DNA of 64,000 nucleotides from Ralstonia pickettii (GTDB lineage Bacteria > Pseudomonadota > Gammaproteobacteria > Burkholderiales > Burkholderiaceae). The notes beneath the pieces were generated by a model. That model was not told the origin of the DNA and ran no database searches. It saw nothing but the letters and a program-made list of their open reading frames with translations. The stretch lies in the NCBI RefSeq assembly GCF_000607165.1, contig NZ_JFZG01000003.1:62001-126000 (forward strand). Direction: 5' to 3'. This document shows positions 28,260-63,421 of the stretch, in pieces; the stretch's first letter is position 1; every line of letters begins with the position of its first letter. The position numbers and the translations under genes were made by a program.

Positions 28260-28736
28260 TCAGGCAGATGCCGCCGTGTAGATGTTCGGCCGATGCAACT
28301 GCATGAACCCGACGCCCTCCGGCACATCGGTAAAGCCGTGCTTGCGATAAAGCCAGTCGGCGCCCGTTGTCACCAACACTGTGCGGCGCAGCGTCTGCAG
28401 GTCAGGGTGCTCGCGCAGGAAGTCCATCAACGCGTGGGAGATACCTTTCCCACGCCAAGCCTGCAGCACGAACACATCGCACAAGTACGCGAACGTTGCA
28501 CGATCGGTGATGACACGCGCAAAACCAACAAGCTCGCCATGTGAGCCATCGCCGTTCAGTCGATAAGCGGCAAGGCACACCGAATTTGCGATCGATCTGT
28601 CGAACACATCGCGTGGCAGGCCGCGGGCCCAATACGTTTCCTGCGAGAGGAAGTTGTAGATGTCGTCCAGCGGGAGCCACGCGGAATCATCAGACAACAC
28701 GATCCCCGTGGCCGAAACTTCTCGCGTCACGGCCAT
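28260..28736 (-). CDS. GNAT family N-acetyltransferase
   Basis: A 158 aa protein with the GNAT core: LVGFARVITD, the YLCDVFVLQAWRGKGISHAL acetyl-CoA loop (Q/RxxGxG/A type), and a C-terminal GADWLYRKHGF strand. I start at the ATG at 28736 because GAGG lies 6 bp upstream; a TTG four codons earlier is possible. The acceptor substrate is unknown. It is downstream of argD on the same strand, 80 bp away. Confidence 0.9.
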   Translation of the reverse strand: MAVTREVSATGIVLSDDSAWLPLDDIYNFLSQETYWARGLPRDVFDRSIANSVCLAAYRLNGDGSHGELVGFARVITDRATFAYLCDVFVLQAWRGKGISHALMDFLREHPDLQTLRRTVLVTTGADWLYRKHGFTDVPEGVGFMQLHRPNIYTAASA

Positions 28737-28816
28737 GGCAAACCTCAAGGGGGGAACTGCGATGGAGCGATGAAGGGCGACGCATTGCGCGCCGCCCCGG
28801 GGTCATGCGATGTGCT

Positions 28817-30004
28817 TTAGGCGTGCGCTTTCAGCAGCGTGCGCAGCATGCCGATCATCGTGTCGATCTCTTCGGTCGTCACGTTCAGCGCAGGCATGAA
28901 GCGCAGGATGTTCGGGCGCGGGGCGTTCAGCAGCAGGCCCGTCGGGTTCATCTCGCGGGCGGCTTCCACCAGTTGGCCGCCAATGTCCTTGCCGAGCAGC
29001 AGCGCGCGCAGCAGGCCGTTACCGCGTTCGCCGGCCAGGCCGAACTCTTCGCTCAGCTTGAGCAGTTGCGTGCGCAGATAGGCGCCGCGTTCTTGCACGC
29101 CGGCCAGGAAGCCCGGGGCCAGGAGTTGCTCGATCACCGAGCAGCCGACGGCCGTCATCAGCGGGTTGCCGTTGTAGGTGCCGCCCTGGTCGCCGGCCTC
29201 GAAGCTGGCAACTTCATCCGTGCACAGCAGGGCCGAGAGCGGCACGCCGCCGCCGATACCCTTGCCCAGCGTCATGATGTCCGGCTCGATGTTCGAGAGC
29301 TGGTAGGCGAAGAGCGTGCCGCAGCGGCCGCAACCGGCCTGCACTTCATCAACGATCAACAGGATCTTGTGCTTCTTGGTCAGCGCGCGCAGCTGCTGCA
29401 TGAATTCCGGCGTGGCCGGCAGCACGCCGCCTTCGCCTTGCACCGGCTCAAGCATCACGCCGACAGTCTCGTCGGTGATGAGCGCTTCCACCGAGGCAAT
29501 GTCGTTCAGGATGGCTTTCGGGAAGCCCGGTACCTGCGGCGCGAAGATGGTGTCCCAGCCGGCCTTGCCCGACGCGCTCATGGTGGCGAGCGTGCGGCCG
29601 TGGAAGCTGTGGTCGAACGTGATGATCTGGAACGCGCCGTTCTTATGCTTCTTGCCCCACTTGCGAGCGAGCTTGATGGCGCCTTCGTTGGCTTCGGCGC
29701 CGCTGTTGGCGAAGAACACCTTGTCGAAACAGCTGTGCGCGGTCAACAGGCCGGCCAGCTTGGCCATTGGCTCGTTGTAGAACGCCGGGCTCGGGTTGAT
29801 CAGCTTCCTGGCCTGCGCGTTCAGCGCTTCGATCATGCCGTCATTGGAGTGGCCGAGGCAGTTGACGGCCCAGCCTTGCACGAAGTCCAGATATCGCTTG
29901 CCGTTGTGGTCCGTCAGCCACGAGCCCTTGCCTTCGGTGAAGATGATCTCGGGCCGATTGGTGATGTACATCAGGGACTGGACGGGGTAGTCAGCAAACG
30001 CCAT
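28817..30004 (-). CDS. argD: Acetylornithine aminotransferase (class III, PLP)
   Basis: A 395 aa class III aminotransferase converting N-acetylglutamate semialdehyde to N-acetylornithine in arginine synthesis; some homologues also serve lysine synthesis. The PLP lysine lies in [18 protein letters not shown] near residue 247. [18 protein letters not shown] and [20 protein letters not shown] are typical. A ribosome site GGAG precedes the ATG. I see no promoter between the terminator at 30071-30098 and this gene, so expression appears to depend on read-through of that leader terminator. A 4-aminobutyrate-type specificity cannot be excluded by sequence alone. Confidence 0.9.
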
Positions 30005-30059
30005 GGCAAAGCTCCAGAAAAAGGCGGCAGGAAGATGAAAAACCGAAAAAACGCGAGTT

Positions 30060-30098
30060 GGAAAAAGACAAAGGCCACGGGGGTTGCCCCGTGGCCTT
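30060..30098 (-). terminator. Intrinsic terminator in the argD leader (candidate attenuator)
   Basis: On the minus strand, AAGGCCACGGGG (30098-30087) pairs perfectly with CCCCGTGGCCTT (30082-30071) around the loop CAAC, followed by TTGTCTTTTT. It lies about 105 nt after the promoter and 67 bp before the argD ATG. It may end a short RNA or act as an attenuator; the arginine-rich ORF before it favours attenuation. Confidence 0.8.
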
Positions 30099-30131
30099 GT
30101 GATCGTCGAATCCTGTGAACCCGATATGCAA

Positions 30132-30203
30132 TCAGCAGACAGCCGCGTGGCTTCCCGGAGGGAGCAACGTACGGCGGCGTCGGAGGTGCAGGGCTCGGTT
30201 CAT
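30132..30203 (-). CDS. Candidate arginine leader peptide upstream of argD (23 aa)
   Basis: ATG at 30203 to TGA at 30132 encodes [16 protein letters not shown] followed by GSHAAVC. Codons 8-11 are CGA CGC CGC CGT, four arginines in a row, and codon 3 is also Arg. The ATG lies 8 nt after the -10 hexamer, so the mRNA would be leaderless or nearly so; no Shine-Dalgarno sequence is possible. The ORF ends 33 nt before the terminator hairpin. A leader peptide rich in the pathway's own amino acid before a terminator and a biosynthetic gene is the layout of his/leu/thr attenuators. CGN codons are common in this GC-rich genome, so the run alone is weak evidence; the context is the stronger part. Confidence 0.55.
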
Positions 30204-30211
30204 AAGGCGCA

Positions 30212-30240
30212 AGAATAAGACGGATGCCAAGTCAAGTCAA
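30212..30240 (-). promoter_or_regulatory. Sigma-70 promoter of the argD leader
   Basis: On the minus strand, TTGACT (30240-30235), a 17 bp spacer and TATTCT (30217-30212). Transcription should begin at about 30203-30205, at or next to the leader ATG. It lies 36 bp past the stop of the upstream reductase gene. Confidence 0.7.
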
Positions 30241-30275
30241 AACGAAATTTTGACCTTCTTTGGATTTGTGCAACG

Positions 30276-31325
30276 TCAGCCGGCCGGGTGGAGGTCTGCC
30301 TCCGAGGTGAAGGAATCGGCGAAGAACGCGTCCGGGTGCATCCGGCACTGGGCGGCGAAATCCGTGCGGGCCGAGTTGATCACCACCGGCGCGCCGCAGG
30401 CGTAGACCTCGTGGCCTGACAGGTCAGGGTGATCGGCCATCACAGCTTGGTGAACGAAGCCGGTGCGGCCTGTCCACGCGTCTTCTGGCAAGGCGTTGGA
30501 GACGACCGGCACGTAGGTGAAGTTCGGCAGCGTGCGCGCCCATTCTTCAGCCTTGGCGTGCATGTACAGGTCTTGTGGGCGACGGCCGCCCCAGTACAAC
30601 GTCATCGGGCGTGTGCTGCCGATGAACTGGGCGTGCTCGATGATCGCCTTGATGGGCGCGAAACCGGTGCCCGAGGCCAGCAGGATGATCGGCTTGTCGG
30701 ATTCTTCACGCAGGAAGAAGCTGCCCAGCGGGCCCTCGAAGCGCAGGATGTCACGCTCCTTCATGGCCGGGGCGCCTTCTTTGGCGCCGAACACGTAGTC
30801 GGTAAATGCGCCGCCCGGCATGTGGCGGATGTGCAGCTCGATCGGGCCTTCGTCGTGGGGCGGGTTGGCGATCGAGTAGCTGCGGCGCTTGCCGTCGCGC
30901 AGGAGGAATTCCACGTACTGTCCGGCCAGAAATTGCATACGCTCGGTGGCAGGCAGTTGCAGCTTGACGATGGTGACGTCCGGCGCGGCCTTTTCCAGCG
31001 ACGCGACGCGGCACGGAATCTTCTTGATGGGTACGTCGCCGGCGCCATGCACTTCGCGCACTTCAATCGTGACGTCAGTGGCGGGCGTGGCGCAGCAGAA
31101 CAGCGCACGGCCTTCGGTGGCTTCCTGGGCGGACAGCGCGTTGGGCGAGTGGTTGCCCTGGACGATGGAGCCCTCACGCACGTGGCCCTTGCACGAACCG
31201 CACGCGCCGTTTTTGCAGCCGTATGGCAGGCCGATGCCCTGGCGCAGCGCCGCTGCAAGGATGGTCTCGCCGTCTTCGGCCTGGAATTGGCGGCCGCTGG
31301 GCAGCACGTTGATCTGGTAAGCCAT
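30276..31325 (-). CDS. 2Fe-2S ferredoxin-type NAD(P)H:flavin oxidoreductase (CDP-6-deoxyglucoseen reductase-like)
   Basis: A 349 aa electron-transfer protein. Its N-terminal plant-type ferredoxin domain holds the cluster cysteines in YGCKNGACGSCKGH and LFCC. A flavin-binding barrel follows with the motif RSYSIANPP, then an NAD(P)-binding domain with LASGTGFAPIKAII. This layout is shared with AscD/RfbI, methane/phenol monooxygenase reductases and NQR-F-like proteins. No oxygenase or sugar genes are nearby, so the acceptor is unknown. The start is the ATG at 31325 (MAYQINVLPSG). It is divergent from the SDR gene, 14 bp between starts. Confidence 0.88.
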   Translation of the reverse strand: MAYQINVLPSGRQFQAEDGETILAAALRQGIGLPYGCKNGACGSCKGHVREGSIVQGNHSPNALSAQEATEGRALFCCATPATDVTIEVREVHGAGDVPIKKIPCRVASLEKAAPDVTIVKLQLPATERMQFLAGQYVEFLLRDGKRRSYSIANPPHDEGPIELHIRHMPGGAFTDYVFGAKEGAPAMKERDILRFEGPLGSFFLREESDKPIILLASGTGFAPIKAIIEHAQFIGSTRPMTLYWGGRRPQDLYMHAKAEEWARTLPNFTYVPVVSNALPEDAWTGRTGFVHQAVMADHPDLSGHEVYACGAPVVINSARTDFAAQCRMHPDAFFADSFTSEADLHPAG

Positions 31326-31339
31326 ACTACAATCCGAAT

Positions 31340-32407
31340 ATGTTGAAAAGAGTGTCTGGTCGCCCGTCTGGGCATGCAATGGTGGTCAATCCGGCAGCAC
31401 GTCCGATGGTGAATCAGTCAGTCGCTCGGCCATCCAAATCTTCACTACGCTTGGGCCTTCCCCGCGTGTTGATCGTCGGTTGCGGCGATGTCGGACAACG
31501 CTGCCTGGCGATGCTCCGCACGCGTTTTCGCGTCTTTGCCGTCACCTCACGCCCCGAAGGTCGCGCTTCGTTGCGCGAAGCCGGCGCCGTGCCGATTGTC
31601 GCCAATCTGGACGATCCCGCGTCGCTGCGCCGCCTGCGAGGTTTAAGCCTCCGCGTGCTGCATCTGGCACCGCCGCCCGCTGCCGGCAACGATGATCCGC
31701 GTACCGCCGCGCTACTGCACGCGCTGACGCAGCCGGCTCCGGTTTCCCGGGCCACAAAACATCGCATTTTACCCGAGCGGGCGCGCAGGTCGGGTGGCCT
31801 CACTGGCCGCTTGAAAACTCACCTCCAAGCGCGCGCGTTCGTGTATGCCAGCACCAGTGGCGTCTACGGCGATGCGGGCGGCGCCTGGGTCGACGAATCC
31901 CGCCCGGTGAAGCCAACCACGGCGCGTGCCCAACGCCGTGTCGCTGCCGAGCGCCGCGTGCGCTGGTTCGGTGCGGGCGGCGGCTGGCGCACGTCGATTT
32001 TGCGCATTCCAGGCATCTATGCAGCCGACCGGCTGCCTGTCGCGCGGCTCGAACGCGGCACGCCCGCCTTGCGCCCGGAAGACGATGTCTACACCAACCA
32101 CATCCACGCCGACGACCTTGCGCGCGCCCTCATTGCCGCGCTGTTCCGGGGGAAACCGCAGCGCGTGGTGCATGCCAGCGATGCATCGGAGCTGCGCATG
32201 GGCGATTACTTTGACGCCGTGGCCGACGCGCGCGGCTTGCAGCGGCCACCGCGCATTTCGCGGGCCGAGGCCGCCCAGCAGATCGAGCCGGCACTGCTGT
32301 CGTTCATGAGCGAATCGCGCCGGCTTCGCAACACGCGGCTAGCGCGCGAGTTGCGCGTGGCGCTGCGCTACCCGACGGTGGCGGATTTCCTGAGCAGCGA
32401 GGCCTGA
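31340..32407 (+). CDS. NAD(P)-dependent sugar epimerase/dehydratase-like SDR protein
   Basis: A 355 aa protein with a Rossmann motif in RVLIVGCGDVGQRCL near residue 43 and a FVYASTSGVYGD active-site strand near residue 160. The extended-SDR lysine is not in the usual YxxxK position, so it is an atypical member. The start is uncertain: ATGs at 31340, 31379, 31382 and 31409 are in frame and the first ~40 residues look unstructured. The stop lies 1 bp before the diguanylate cyclase ATG. Confidence 0.8.
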   Translation: MLKRVSGRPSGHAMVVNPAARPMVNQSVARPSKSSLRLGLPRVLIVGCGDVGQRCLAMLRTRFRVFAVTSRPEGRASLREAGAVPIVANLDDPASLRRLRGLSLRVLHLAPPPAAGNDDPRTAALLHALTQPAPVSRATKHRILPERARRSGGLTGRLKTHLQARAFVYASTSGVYGDAGGAWVDESRPVKPTTARAQRRVAAERRVRWFGAGGGWRTSILRIPGIYAADRLPVARLERGTPALRPEDDVYTNHIHADDLARALIAALFRGKPQRVVHASDASELRMGDYFDAVADARGLQRPPRISRAEAAQQIEPALLSFMSESRRLRNTRLARELRVALRYPTVADFLSSEA

Positions 32408-41706: not shown

Positions 41707-41791
41707 TGGTGCCCGAGGCCGGAATCGAACCGGCACGCCTTGCGGCGGGGGATTTTGAGTCCCCTGCGTCTACCAATTTCACCACTCGGGC
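41707..41791 (-). tRNA. tRNA-Leu (anticodon CAA)
   Basis: An 85 nt class II tRNA with encoded CCA. Acceptor stem GCCCGAG/CTCGGGC with discriminator A. Anticodon stem GGGGA/TCCCC with loop CTCAAAA gives anticodon CAA. A long variable arm (CGCCGCAAGGCG) and a T-loop GGTTCGATTCC are present. It reads UUG codons. A promoter lies just upstream and a terminator just downstream, so it is transcribed alone. Confidence 0.97.
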
Positions 41792-63080: not shown

Positions 63081-63120
63081 AAAAAGGCGGTAGCGCACAT
63101 GTGCGCTACCGCCTTTTTTT
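63081..63120. terminator. Perfect-palindrome terminator after ssrS
   Basis: A perfect 38 bp palindrome (arms 63081-63099 and 63100-63118) with an A-run at one end and a T-run at the other. It immediately follows the 6S RNA 3' end on the minus strand. With no unpaired loop in the DNA palindrome the RNA stem will open a few central bases. Confidence 0.9.
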
Positions 63121-63335
63121 GGGTCCCCACCTTGGCCGCTAGACCCGCATCCTGAACCCAAGTGAGGTTCAGAGTGGCAGCGGAAGCCGCATTTTGGGTA
63201 CATCACCGGCGCAGGGAGCCCACGACTTGCGTCGCACGCTATGCACTGGAAGACGCGCTCGCCCACACGGCATATCCCGCACCAAGCAATGCTTATCGGT
63301 TCAAGGAATTAATGGCCATGGCGAACCAGGCAGGG
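63121..63335 (-). ncRNA. ssrS: 6S RNA
   Basis: Lies between zapA and the EVE gene on the zapA strand, the usual proteobacterial position. The RNA ends can pair: CCTGGTTCGCCATGGCC (63330-63314) with GGCCAAGGTGGGGACC at the 3' end, one mismatch and wobbles, forming the closing stem. Inside, the 3' half has the small hairpin TGAACC/GGGTTCA seen in 6S RNAs, and the 5' half has CCTTGAACCGATAAGC resembling the E. coli bubble strand. 6S RNA binds sigma-70 polymerase and represses promoters in stationary phase. End points are approximate; about 210 nt is slightly long. Confidence 0.75.
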
Positions 63336-63421
63336 AAACTGTCAGACGCATCATCACGCTGTGTTTCGAGCGCATGGCGATGCGTCTGAAAGATTCATCG
63401 CAGGCAACCGTTTTTCTCTAC

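Follow-up and report, generated by a model that had tools for sequence, protein, structure and literature searches.

The argD gene of Ralstonia pickettii is preceded by a short leader region that very likely works as a ribosome-mediated transcription attenuator, responding to arginine supply through the level of charged tRNA-Arg. The window, meaning the whole stretch of DNA that was analyzed, comprises 64,000 nt of the R. pickettii assembly GCF_000607165.1 (contig NZ_JFZG01000003.1, positions 62,001 to 126,000, forward strand). Read directly, its sequence gives the minus-strand order promoter, 23-codon upstream ORF (uORF), terminator, and argD. This order, with a TTGACT-17-TATTCT promoter and a terminator ending in a U-run, had been described in an earlier note on the same DNA, and each of the parts was found again at its place. 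The features of the locus, in window coordinates, are the following.

30212..30240, minus strand: sigma-70-type promoter TTGACT-17-TATTCT, found by promoter scan and with an equivalent in 110/110 argD upstream regions.
30132..30203, minus strand: leader uORF of 23 codons plus TGA, with its ATG at 30203; position and frame are kept in relatives.
30171..30182, minus strand: Arg codons 8 to 11 (CGA CGC CGC CGT), the proposed sensor and segment 1.
30138..30151, minus strand: proposed segment 2 (GCCACGCGGCTGTC), whose predicted partners are the Arg codons or, alternatively, the terminator 5' arm.
30071..30098, minus strand: intrinsic terminator stem-loop (segments 3 and 4), found by terminator scan; a terminator lies 3' of the uORF in 126/126 rows of the family comparison.
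30062..30070, minus strand: U-rich terminator tract TGTCTTTTT, directly 3' of the stem.
30070..30218, minus strand: whole leader RNA, a full-length sub-threshold match (30.1 bits) to Rfam RF02884 BcKCsr7.
28817..30004, minus strand: argD, acetylornithine transaminase, the gene under the proposed control (NF002985, 783 bits against a cut-off of 568).
28260..28748, minus strand: GNAT-family acetyltransferase gene (Pfam GNAT domains), the next gene found 3' of argD on the same strand.

The terminator stem, AAGGCCACGGGG-CAAC-CCCCGTGGCCTT, is GC-rich, with 12 bp and a 4-nt loop, and has a predicted strength of −24 kcal/mol, while the fold predicted for the leader RNA as a whole beats 200 of 200 shuffles (z −3.8). 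Terminator-like matches in the region 28500-31500 occur at chance level (3 observed versus 2.8 expected), so the case for this particular terminator lies in its strength and its conservation. A simple scan of both strands of the same region returned the uORF promoter as its sole promoter-like match, with 0.4 expected in shuffled sequences; the earlier note had likewise seen no promoter between the terminator and argD. The GNAT acetyltransferase gene is possibly co-transcribed with argD. Two further RNA genes were found in other parts of the window, both on the minus strand: a 6S RNA at 63120-63339 (RF00013, 50 bits) and a tRNA gene at 41710-41791 (RF00005, 53 bits).

Conservation of the leader was followed in 110 argD loci, consisting of the 80 best of at least 579 ArgD search matches (Ralstonia, Cupriavidus, Paraburkholderia, Trinickia, and Burkholderia-named records) together with a further 30 best-scoring loci, all of which come from one related genus (g12). 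The addition of 16 genomes from the same genus as the window, 8 of which have the same sequences as among the 80 loci, gave 126 rows (L001-L016 and L020-L129) that represent 113 distinct upstream regions, the 110 loci by themselves representing 105. A pattern of promoter plus ATG, defined for counting after the first upstream regions had been inspected, matched exactly once upstream of argD in each of the 110 loci, and every one of these matches is the start of a small ORF that contains an Arg run and has a terminator 3' of it. Comparison across relatives was the check that the earlier note had put forward, and run, terminator, and promoter are kept in all 110 upstream regions. The run contains four adjacent Arg codons in 83 loci, three in 19, and two in 8, and the leader peptides drift (e.g., MHTTFNRRRSFRTSLPAGVPRG, MNTAMIRRRARTLLPSGVPRG, MNRIQSELRRRRSPLP, and MNRFLSALRRRRSPLRPDAAGSSRTRA). 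A composite scan of the 80 loci (965,872 bases, both strands counted), with a pattern that was set post hoc, returned 80 cases, all of them upstream of argD.

The reading frame is conserved along with the Arg codons. In 126/126 rows, which were chosen irrespective of the peptide, the distance from the ATG to CGACG is 18, 21, or 24 nt and thus always in frame, and the uORF of one locus (L040) carries a 9-nt insertion that is likewise in frame. All 113 distinct leaders begin the run with CGA, and their run codons are CGC (220), CGA (115), and CGT (83), with no other Arg codon used. For comparison, window ORFs of at least 300 codons, a set that may include shadow ORFs, contain 2077 Arg codons, of which 357 are CGG and 212 CGA; the codon that is invariable at the first position of the run therefore makes up about a tenth of the Arg codons in long window ORFs. 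A single tRNA reads CGA, CGC, and CGU, and CGA may be kept as the first run codon by slow decoding or by RNA pairing. The earlier note had also drawn attention to a CGA at codon 3, which is present in the window but replaced by Gln or His in sister species; it is the run at codons 8-11 that is conserved.

The same layout extends to other families of the order Burkholderiales. A sample of 300 genomes from the order contained 46 with an ArgD of the NF002985 type (E ≤ 1e-160); the layout is present in 26 of these, ambiguous in 1 (L190), and absent from 19. The 26 positive genomes span nine families (f1, f3, f5, f8, f15, f21, f24, f35, and f39). Of the 46 regions, 40 were newly read, and the other six (G000, G017, G026, G038, G043, and G059) carry the layout; among the 40, 13 were flagged by script and 7 were recognized by eye (L185, L191, L194, and L196-L199). 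The positives accordingly comprise 19 plain cases and 7 recognized by eye, and the negatives comprise 12 judged by script alone and 7 that were also viewed. Among the order genomes examined, the layout is absent from f4 (8/8), f30 (3/3), and f1-g13 (3/3), and in L181 and L182 an Arg-rich ORF is present, with neither a terminator nor a fitting promoter detected. A separate set of 34 genomes contained 11 with an NF002985-type ArgD, 5 of which are without the element (L131, L133, L136, L137, and L140), 19 with loci below the ArgD family cut-off, and 4 without a locus. At the 19 loci below the cut-off, several of which have approximate gene starts, the script detected no combination of Arg-rich ORF and terminator.

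The letters of the terminator vary by family while the layout is kept, with arms of GCCACAGG/CCUGUGGC in f8, GCCGCGC/GCGCGGC in f3, and GGCCGCA/UGCGGCC in f24. CGACG stands in frame, 18 to 72 nt from the ATG, in 31 of 34 cross-family representatives, a count that is no independent test because ORFs outside the family were picked for in-frame Arg codons. The remaining 3 representatives, all from f5, have Arg-rich ORFs whose run lacks CGACG, and their codons and spacing differ. The terminator arm GGCCGCA of f24 has a clear complement near the end of the uORF, with the letters UGCGGCC or nearly so, and the f5 arm GCCACGG is likewise complemented by a segment that reads CCGUGGC or differs little from it. 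The f5 leader ORFs (L194-L199) also share a conserved G-R-G-A stretch, with nucleotides like GGCCGUGGCGCG, which doubles as the proposed antiterminator strand against the terminator arm.

ArgR is the usual explanation for the control of arginine synthesis in Gram-negative bacteria, and the earlier note had taken ArgR control as the norm against which an Arg leader would stand out. In the genomes searched here, matches to ArgR (PF01316) were found in 0 of 101 genomes, which included the genome of the window and relatives from its genus, family, and order, while 9 of 14 controls did match. ArgR control of argD was rejected on this basis. A comparative study describes ArgR as conserved in many groups of gammaproteobacteria and absent from other classes (PMC5343134). 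Upstream of argF and argG in the genome of the window, neither the script nor inspection of the sequence revealed a leader of this kind, so pathway-wide control is not supported and argD is the only gene at which the leader is shown. The same genome has two argC-like matches, both below the family cut-off, for which no gene start was found.

How a ribosome would enter the uORF is suggested by the spacing of the promoter. The ATG follows the −10 hexamer by 7 nt in 104 of the 126 rows and by 8 nt in the other 22, and the gap is 8 nt in the window leader. Such a short distance predicts a leaderless mRNA in these Burkholderiaceae, and in the window the spacing places the predicted transcription start at about 30205. 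The probable leaderless state of the uORF mRNA is one of two points that go beyond the earlier note, the other being the relation of the RNA to a catalogued sRNA, BcKCsr7. Leaderless mRNAs account for 4.67% of primary starts in Cupriavidus metallidurans and have also been noted for B. cenocepacia (PMC7563307).

We propose that transcription begins at the ATG or just 5' of it and that a ribosome loads on the leaderless end. With ample arginine, the ribosome would pass the Arg codons toward the stop and mask segment 2, the terminator would form, and termination would release an RNA of ~145 nt, the BcKCsr7-like species. With charged tRNA-Arg scarce, the ribosome would stall on CGA CGC CGC CGT, so that segment 2, left exposed, could capture the terminator 5' arm ahead of synthesis of the 3' arm, and RNA polymerase would continue into argD. 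If the uORF were not translated at all, segment 2 would be occupied by the Arg codons and the terminator would be the default structure.

The RNA released in this scheme has a counterpart in Rfam. The window leader matches RF02884 (BcKCsr7) across model positions 1-157 with 30.1 bits and an E-value of 1.9e-4, below the 59-bit gathering threshold; it is related to BcKCsr7 and is not a formal member of the family. This is the one BcKCsr7 match listed for the genome of the window. BcKCsr7 scored above threshold in 4 of 8 relatives scanned, and across 200 genomes of the family it gave a match at E ≤ 0.001 in 120 and above threshold in 81. Of these 81, the 67 with a listed argD were checked, and in every case (67/67) the match ends 38-102 nt before argD and has the same orientation. 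Two Cupriavidus leaders (L031 and L044) are sub-threshold despite the same position, as is the Ralstonia leader, and weak second matches (E ~1e-4 to 6e-4) occur elsewhere in G013, G035, G145, G188, and G221. The leader and BcKCsr7 are very probably the same RNA, read here as the terminated leader, and the Rfam family could be broadened and its description changed to that of an argD leader.

To judge by its name, BcKCsr7 would be the Bc_KC_sr7 of two reviews, which report that Ghosh et al. confirmed the expression of Bc_KC_sr1-7 in B. cenocepacia and that target prediction suggested roles for this set in Fe-S cluster and siderophore synthesis and in oxidative stress, none of them specific to sr7 (PMC10987360, PMC6321483). 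The available text of these reviews and of the Rfam entry mentions neither a leader peptide nor attenuation in describing it. In the same species, Sass 2017 lists 82 5' UTRs with short transcripts that arise via processing or attenuation (PMC5688073).

Its status in the databases raises the alternative that the short RNA acts chiefly in trans, as an sRNA, with promoter and terminator its own and argD dependent on a weak promoter of its own or on leak-through. RF02884 is typed as an sRNA in Rfam, the reviews count Bc_KC_sr7 among seven expressed sRNAs with set-wide roles suggested by target prediction, and a terminator of −24 kcal/mol is predicted to be strong; yet all 67 checked matches immediately precede argD in the same orientation, and the Arg run keeps the frame of the ATG whichever of the three distances separates them. 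The layout stays constant where the terminator letters vary between families, and the simple scan showed no second promoter-like site in the region. We consider an RNA of mainly trans-acting function very improbable. A combined reading, in which one locus has two outputs, namely a leaderless arginine attenuator that replaces ArgR at argD in much of Burkholderiales and a terminated leader (BcKCsr7) and/or peptide that acts in trans, is speculative and on balance unlikely. Trans action has reportedly been proposed for a rhizobial trp leader.

Attenuation at argD calls for mutually exclusive pairings, and these were compared in silico for 34 leaders from 20 groups in three states, with a ribosome stalled at the first Arg codon, with a ribosome at the stop, and with none, under an assumed ribosome footprint of 13 nt. 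In the absence of the 3' arm, pairing of the terminator 5' arm (arm 3) with upstream RNA amounted to −7.8 kcal/mol in the stalled state, −3.9 kcal/mol with the ribosome at the stop, and −3.7 kcal/mol without a ribosome (means of 20 groups). Pairing in the stalled state was better than the shuffle mean in 17/20 groups (mean z −1.23) and better than pairing in the at-stop state by more than 1 kcal/mol in 15/20, and in 19/20 groups the native 5' part was superior to shuffled ones at sequestering segment 2 from arm 3 (mean z 1.23), although these counts are not independent because the groups are related. A plain duplex test of the terminator arm against segment 2 gave a moderate result (mean z −0.71, negative in 15/20 groups). 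Over the groups, the predicted folds favor the exclusive 1:2, 2:3, and 3:4 states of classical attenuators, with the window leader taken alone not significant (z −0.05 for arm 3 versus segment 2, −0.34 for the stalled state, and 0.69 for sequestration).

The same folds bear on a second alternative, in which the conserved letters reflect RNA pairing only, the uORF is untranslated, and the switch is an RNA bound by a protein or a ligand. Pairing could keep the letters of the Arg codons, since these pair with segment 2 in the predicted folds, and the synonymous excess expected of a translated ORF is weak in the codon-position test, being slight in 4 of 6 sets and absent from the two Cupriavidus sets. 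What makes this alternative very improbable in our view is that frame and start position are kept despite length changes, including the in-frame 9-nt insertion of L040, that the codons match the pathway of the downstream gene, and that the f5 leaders are still Arg-rich though their codons and spacing differ. A chance origin of the Arg run in GC-rich intergenic DNA, for which one could cite that 23 of the 575 small ATG ORFs (12-45 codons) in the window contain RRR and 4 contain RRRR, which makes the run alone unusual and not decisive, and that terminator-like matches are at chance number, has practically no likelihood and was rejected by the conservation of the run at 110/110 argD loci and its presence in nine families. 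The reading of this leader as an Arg leader-peptide attenuator of argD, as the earlier note had it, thus has strong support from its conservation at the 110 loci and in the nine families, and we hold it with high confidence.

A conserved arginine attenuator would be a partial answer to the question of how arginine is sensed in bacteria without a detected ArgR. It would add arginine to the amino acids that are sensed by terminator-switching leader peptides, probably without a ribosome binding site, and it offers a testable function for an expressed RNA catalogued as an sRNA in Rfam and in reviews. Classical attenuators (his, trp, leu, thr, ilv, and phe) consist of a short ORF with codons for the product of the pathway, an intrinsic terminator, a competing antiterminator, and a biosynthetic gene. 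The argD leader resembles them in its product-codon ORF, its terminator, its proposed competing antiterminator, and the biosynthetic gene downstream, and it differs from them in having Arg codons at an arginine gene, in its probably leaderless start, and in its occurrence in Burkholderiales without a detected ArgR. To our knowledge, arginine is not among the classical cases. One account names attenuators for his, thr, and phe, and T-boxes for tyrosine and arginine (PMC1262725), and neither argD, argF, nor arginine occurs in the main text of a terminator survey (PMC2965389). We recognized no earlier bacterial arginine leader-peptide transcription attenuator in the open-access literature.

Several known systems share single traits with the argD leader. 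The fungal arginine attenuator peptide (arg-2/CPA1) is likewise encoded by a uORF upstream of an arginine gene, but its logic is opposite, with the nascent peptide stalling at high arginine and blocking translation (PMC11550727). Closer in its sensing is orf34 in the leader of Salmonella speF, where consecutive Arg codons of a leader ORF sense arginine, as proposed here for argD; it differs in that it involves Rho, ribosome-site release, and mRNA decay, in that it governs a polyamine gene in another clade, and in that no Rho-independent terminator was found, according to the report (PMC6386406). In Staphylococcus aureus, the leader ORF rbfL senses arginine through rare Arg codons, similar to the proposal for argD, whereas it governs translation initiation of rbf, with no terminator switch in the description given (PMC13009471). 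The probably leaderless argD uORF finds its nearest parallel in the ilvBNC leader of Corynebacterium glutamicum, an attenuator whose peptide is described as made without a ribosome binding site, although that leader serves branched-chain amino acids and belongs to the Actinobacteria.
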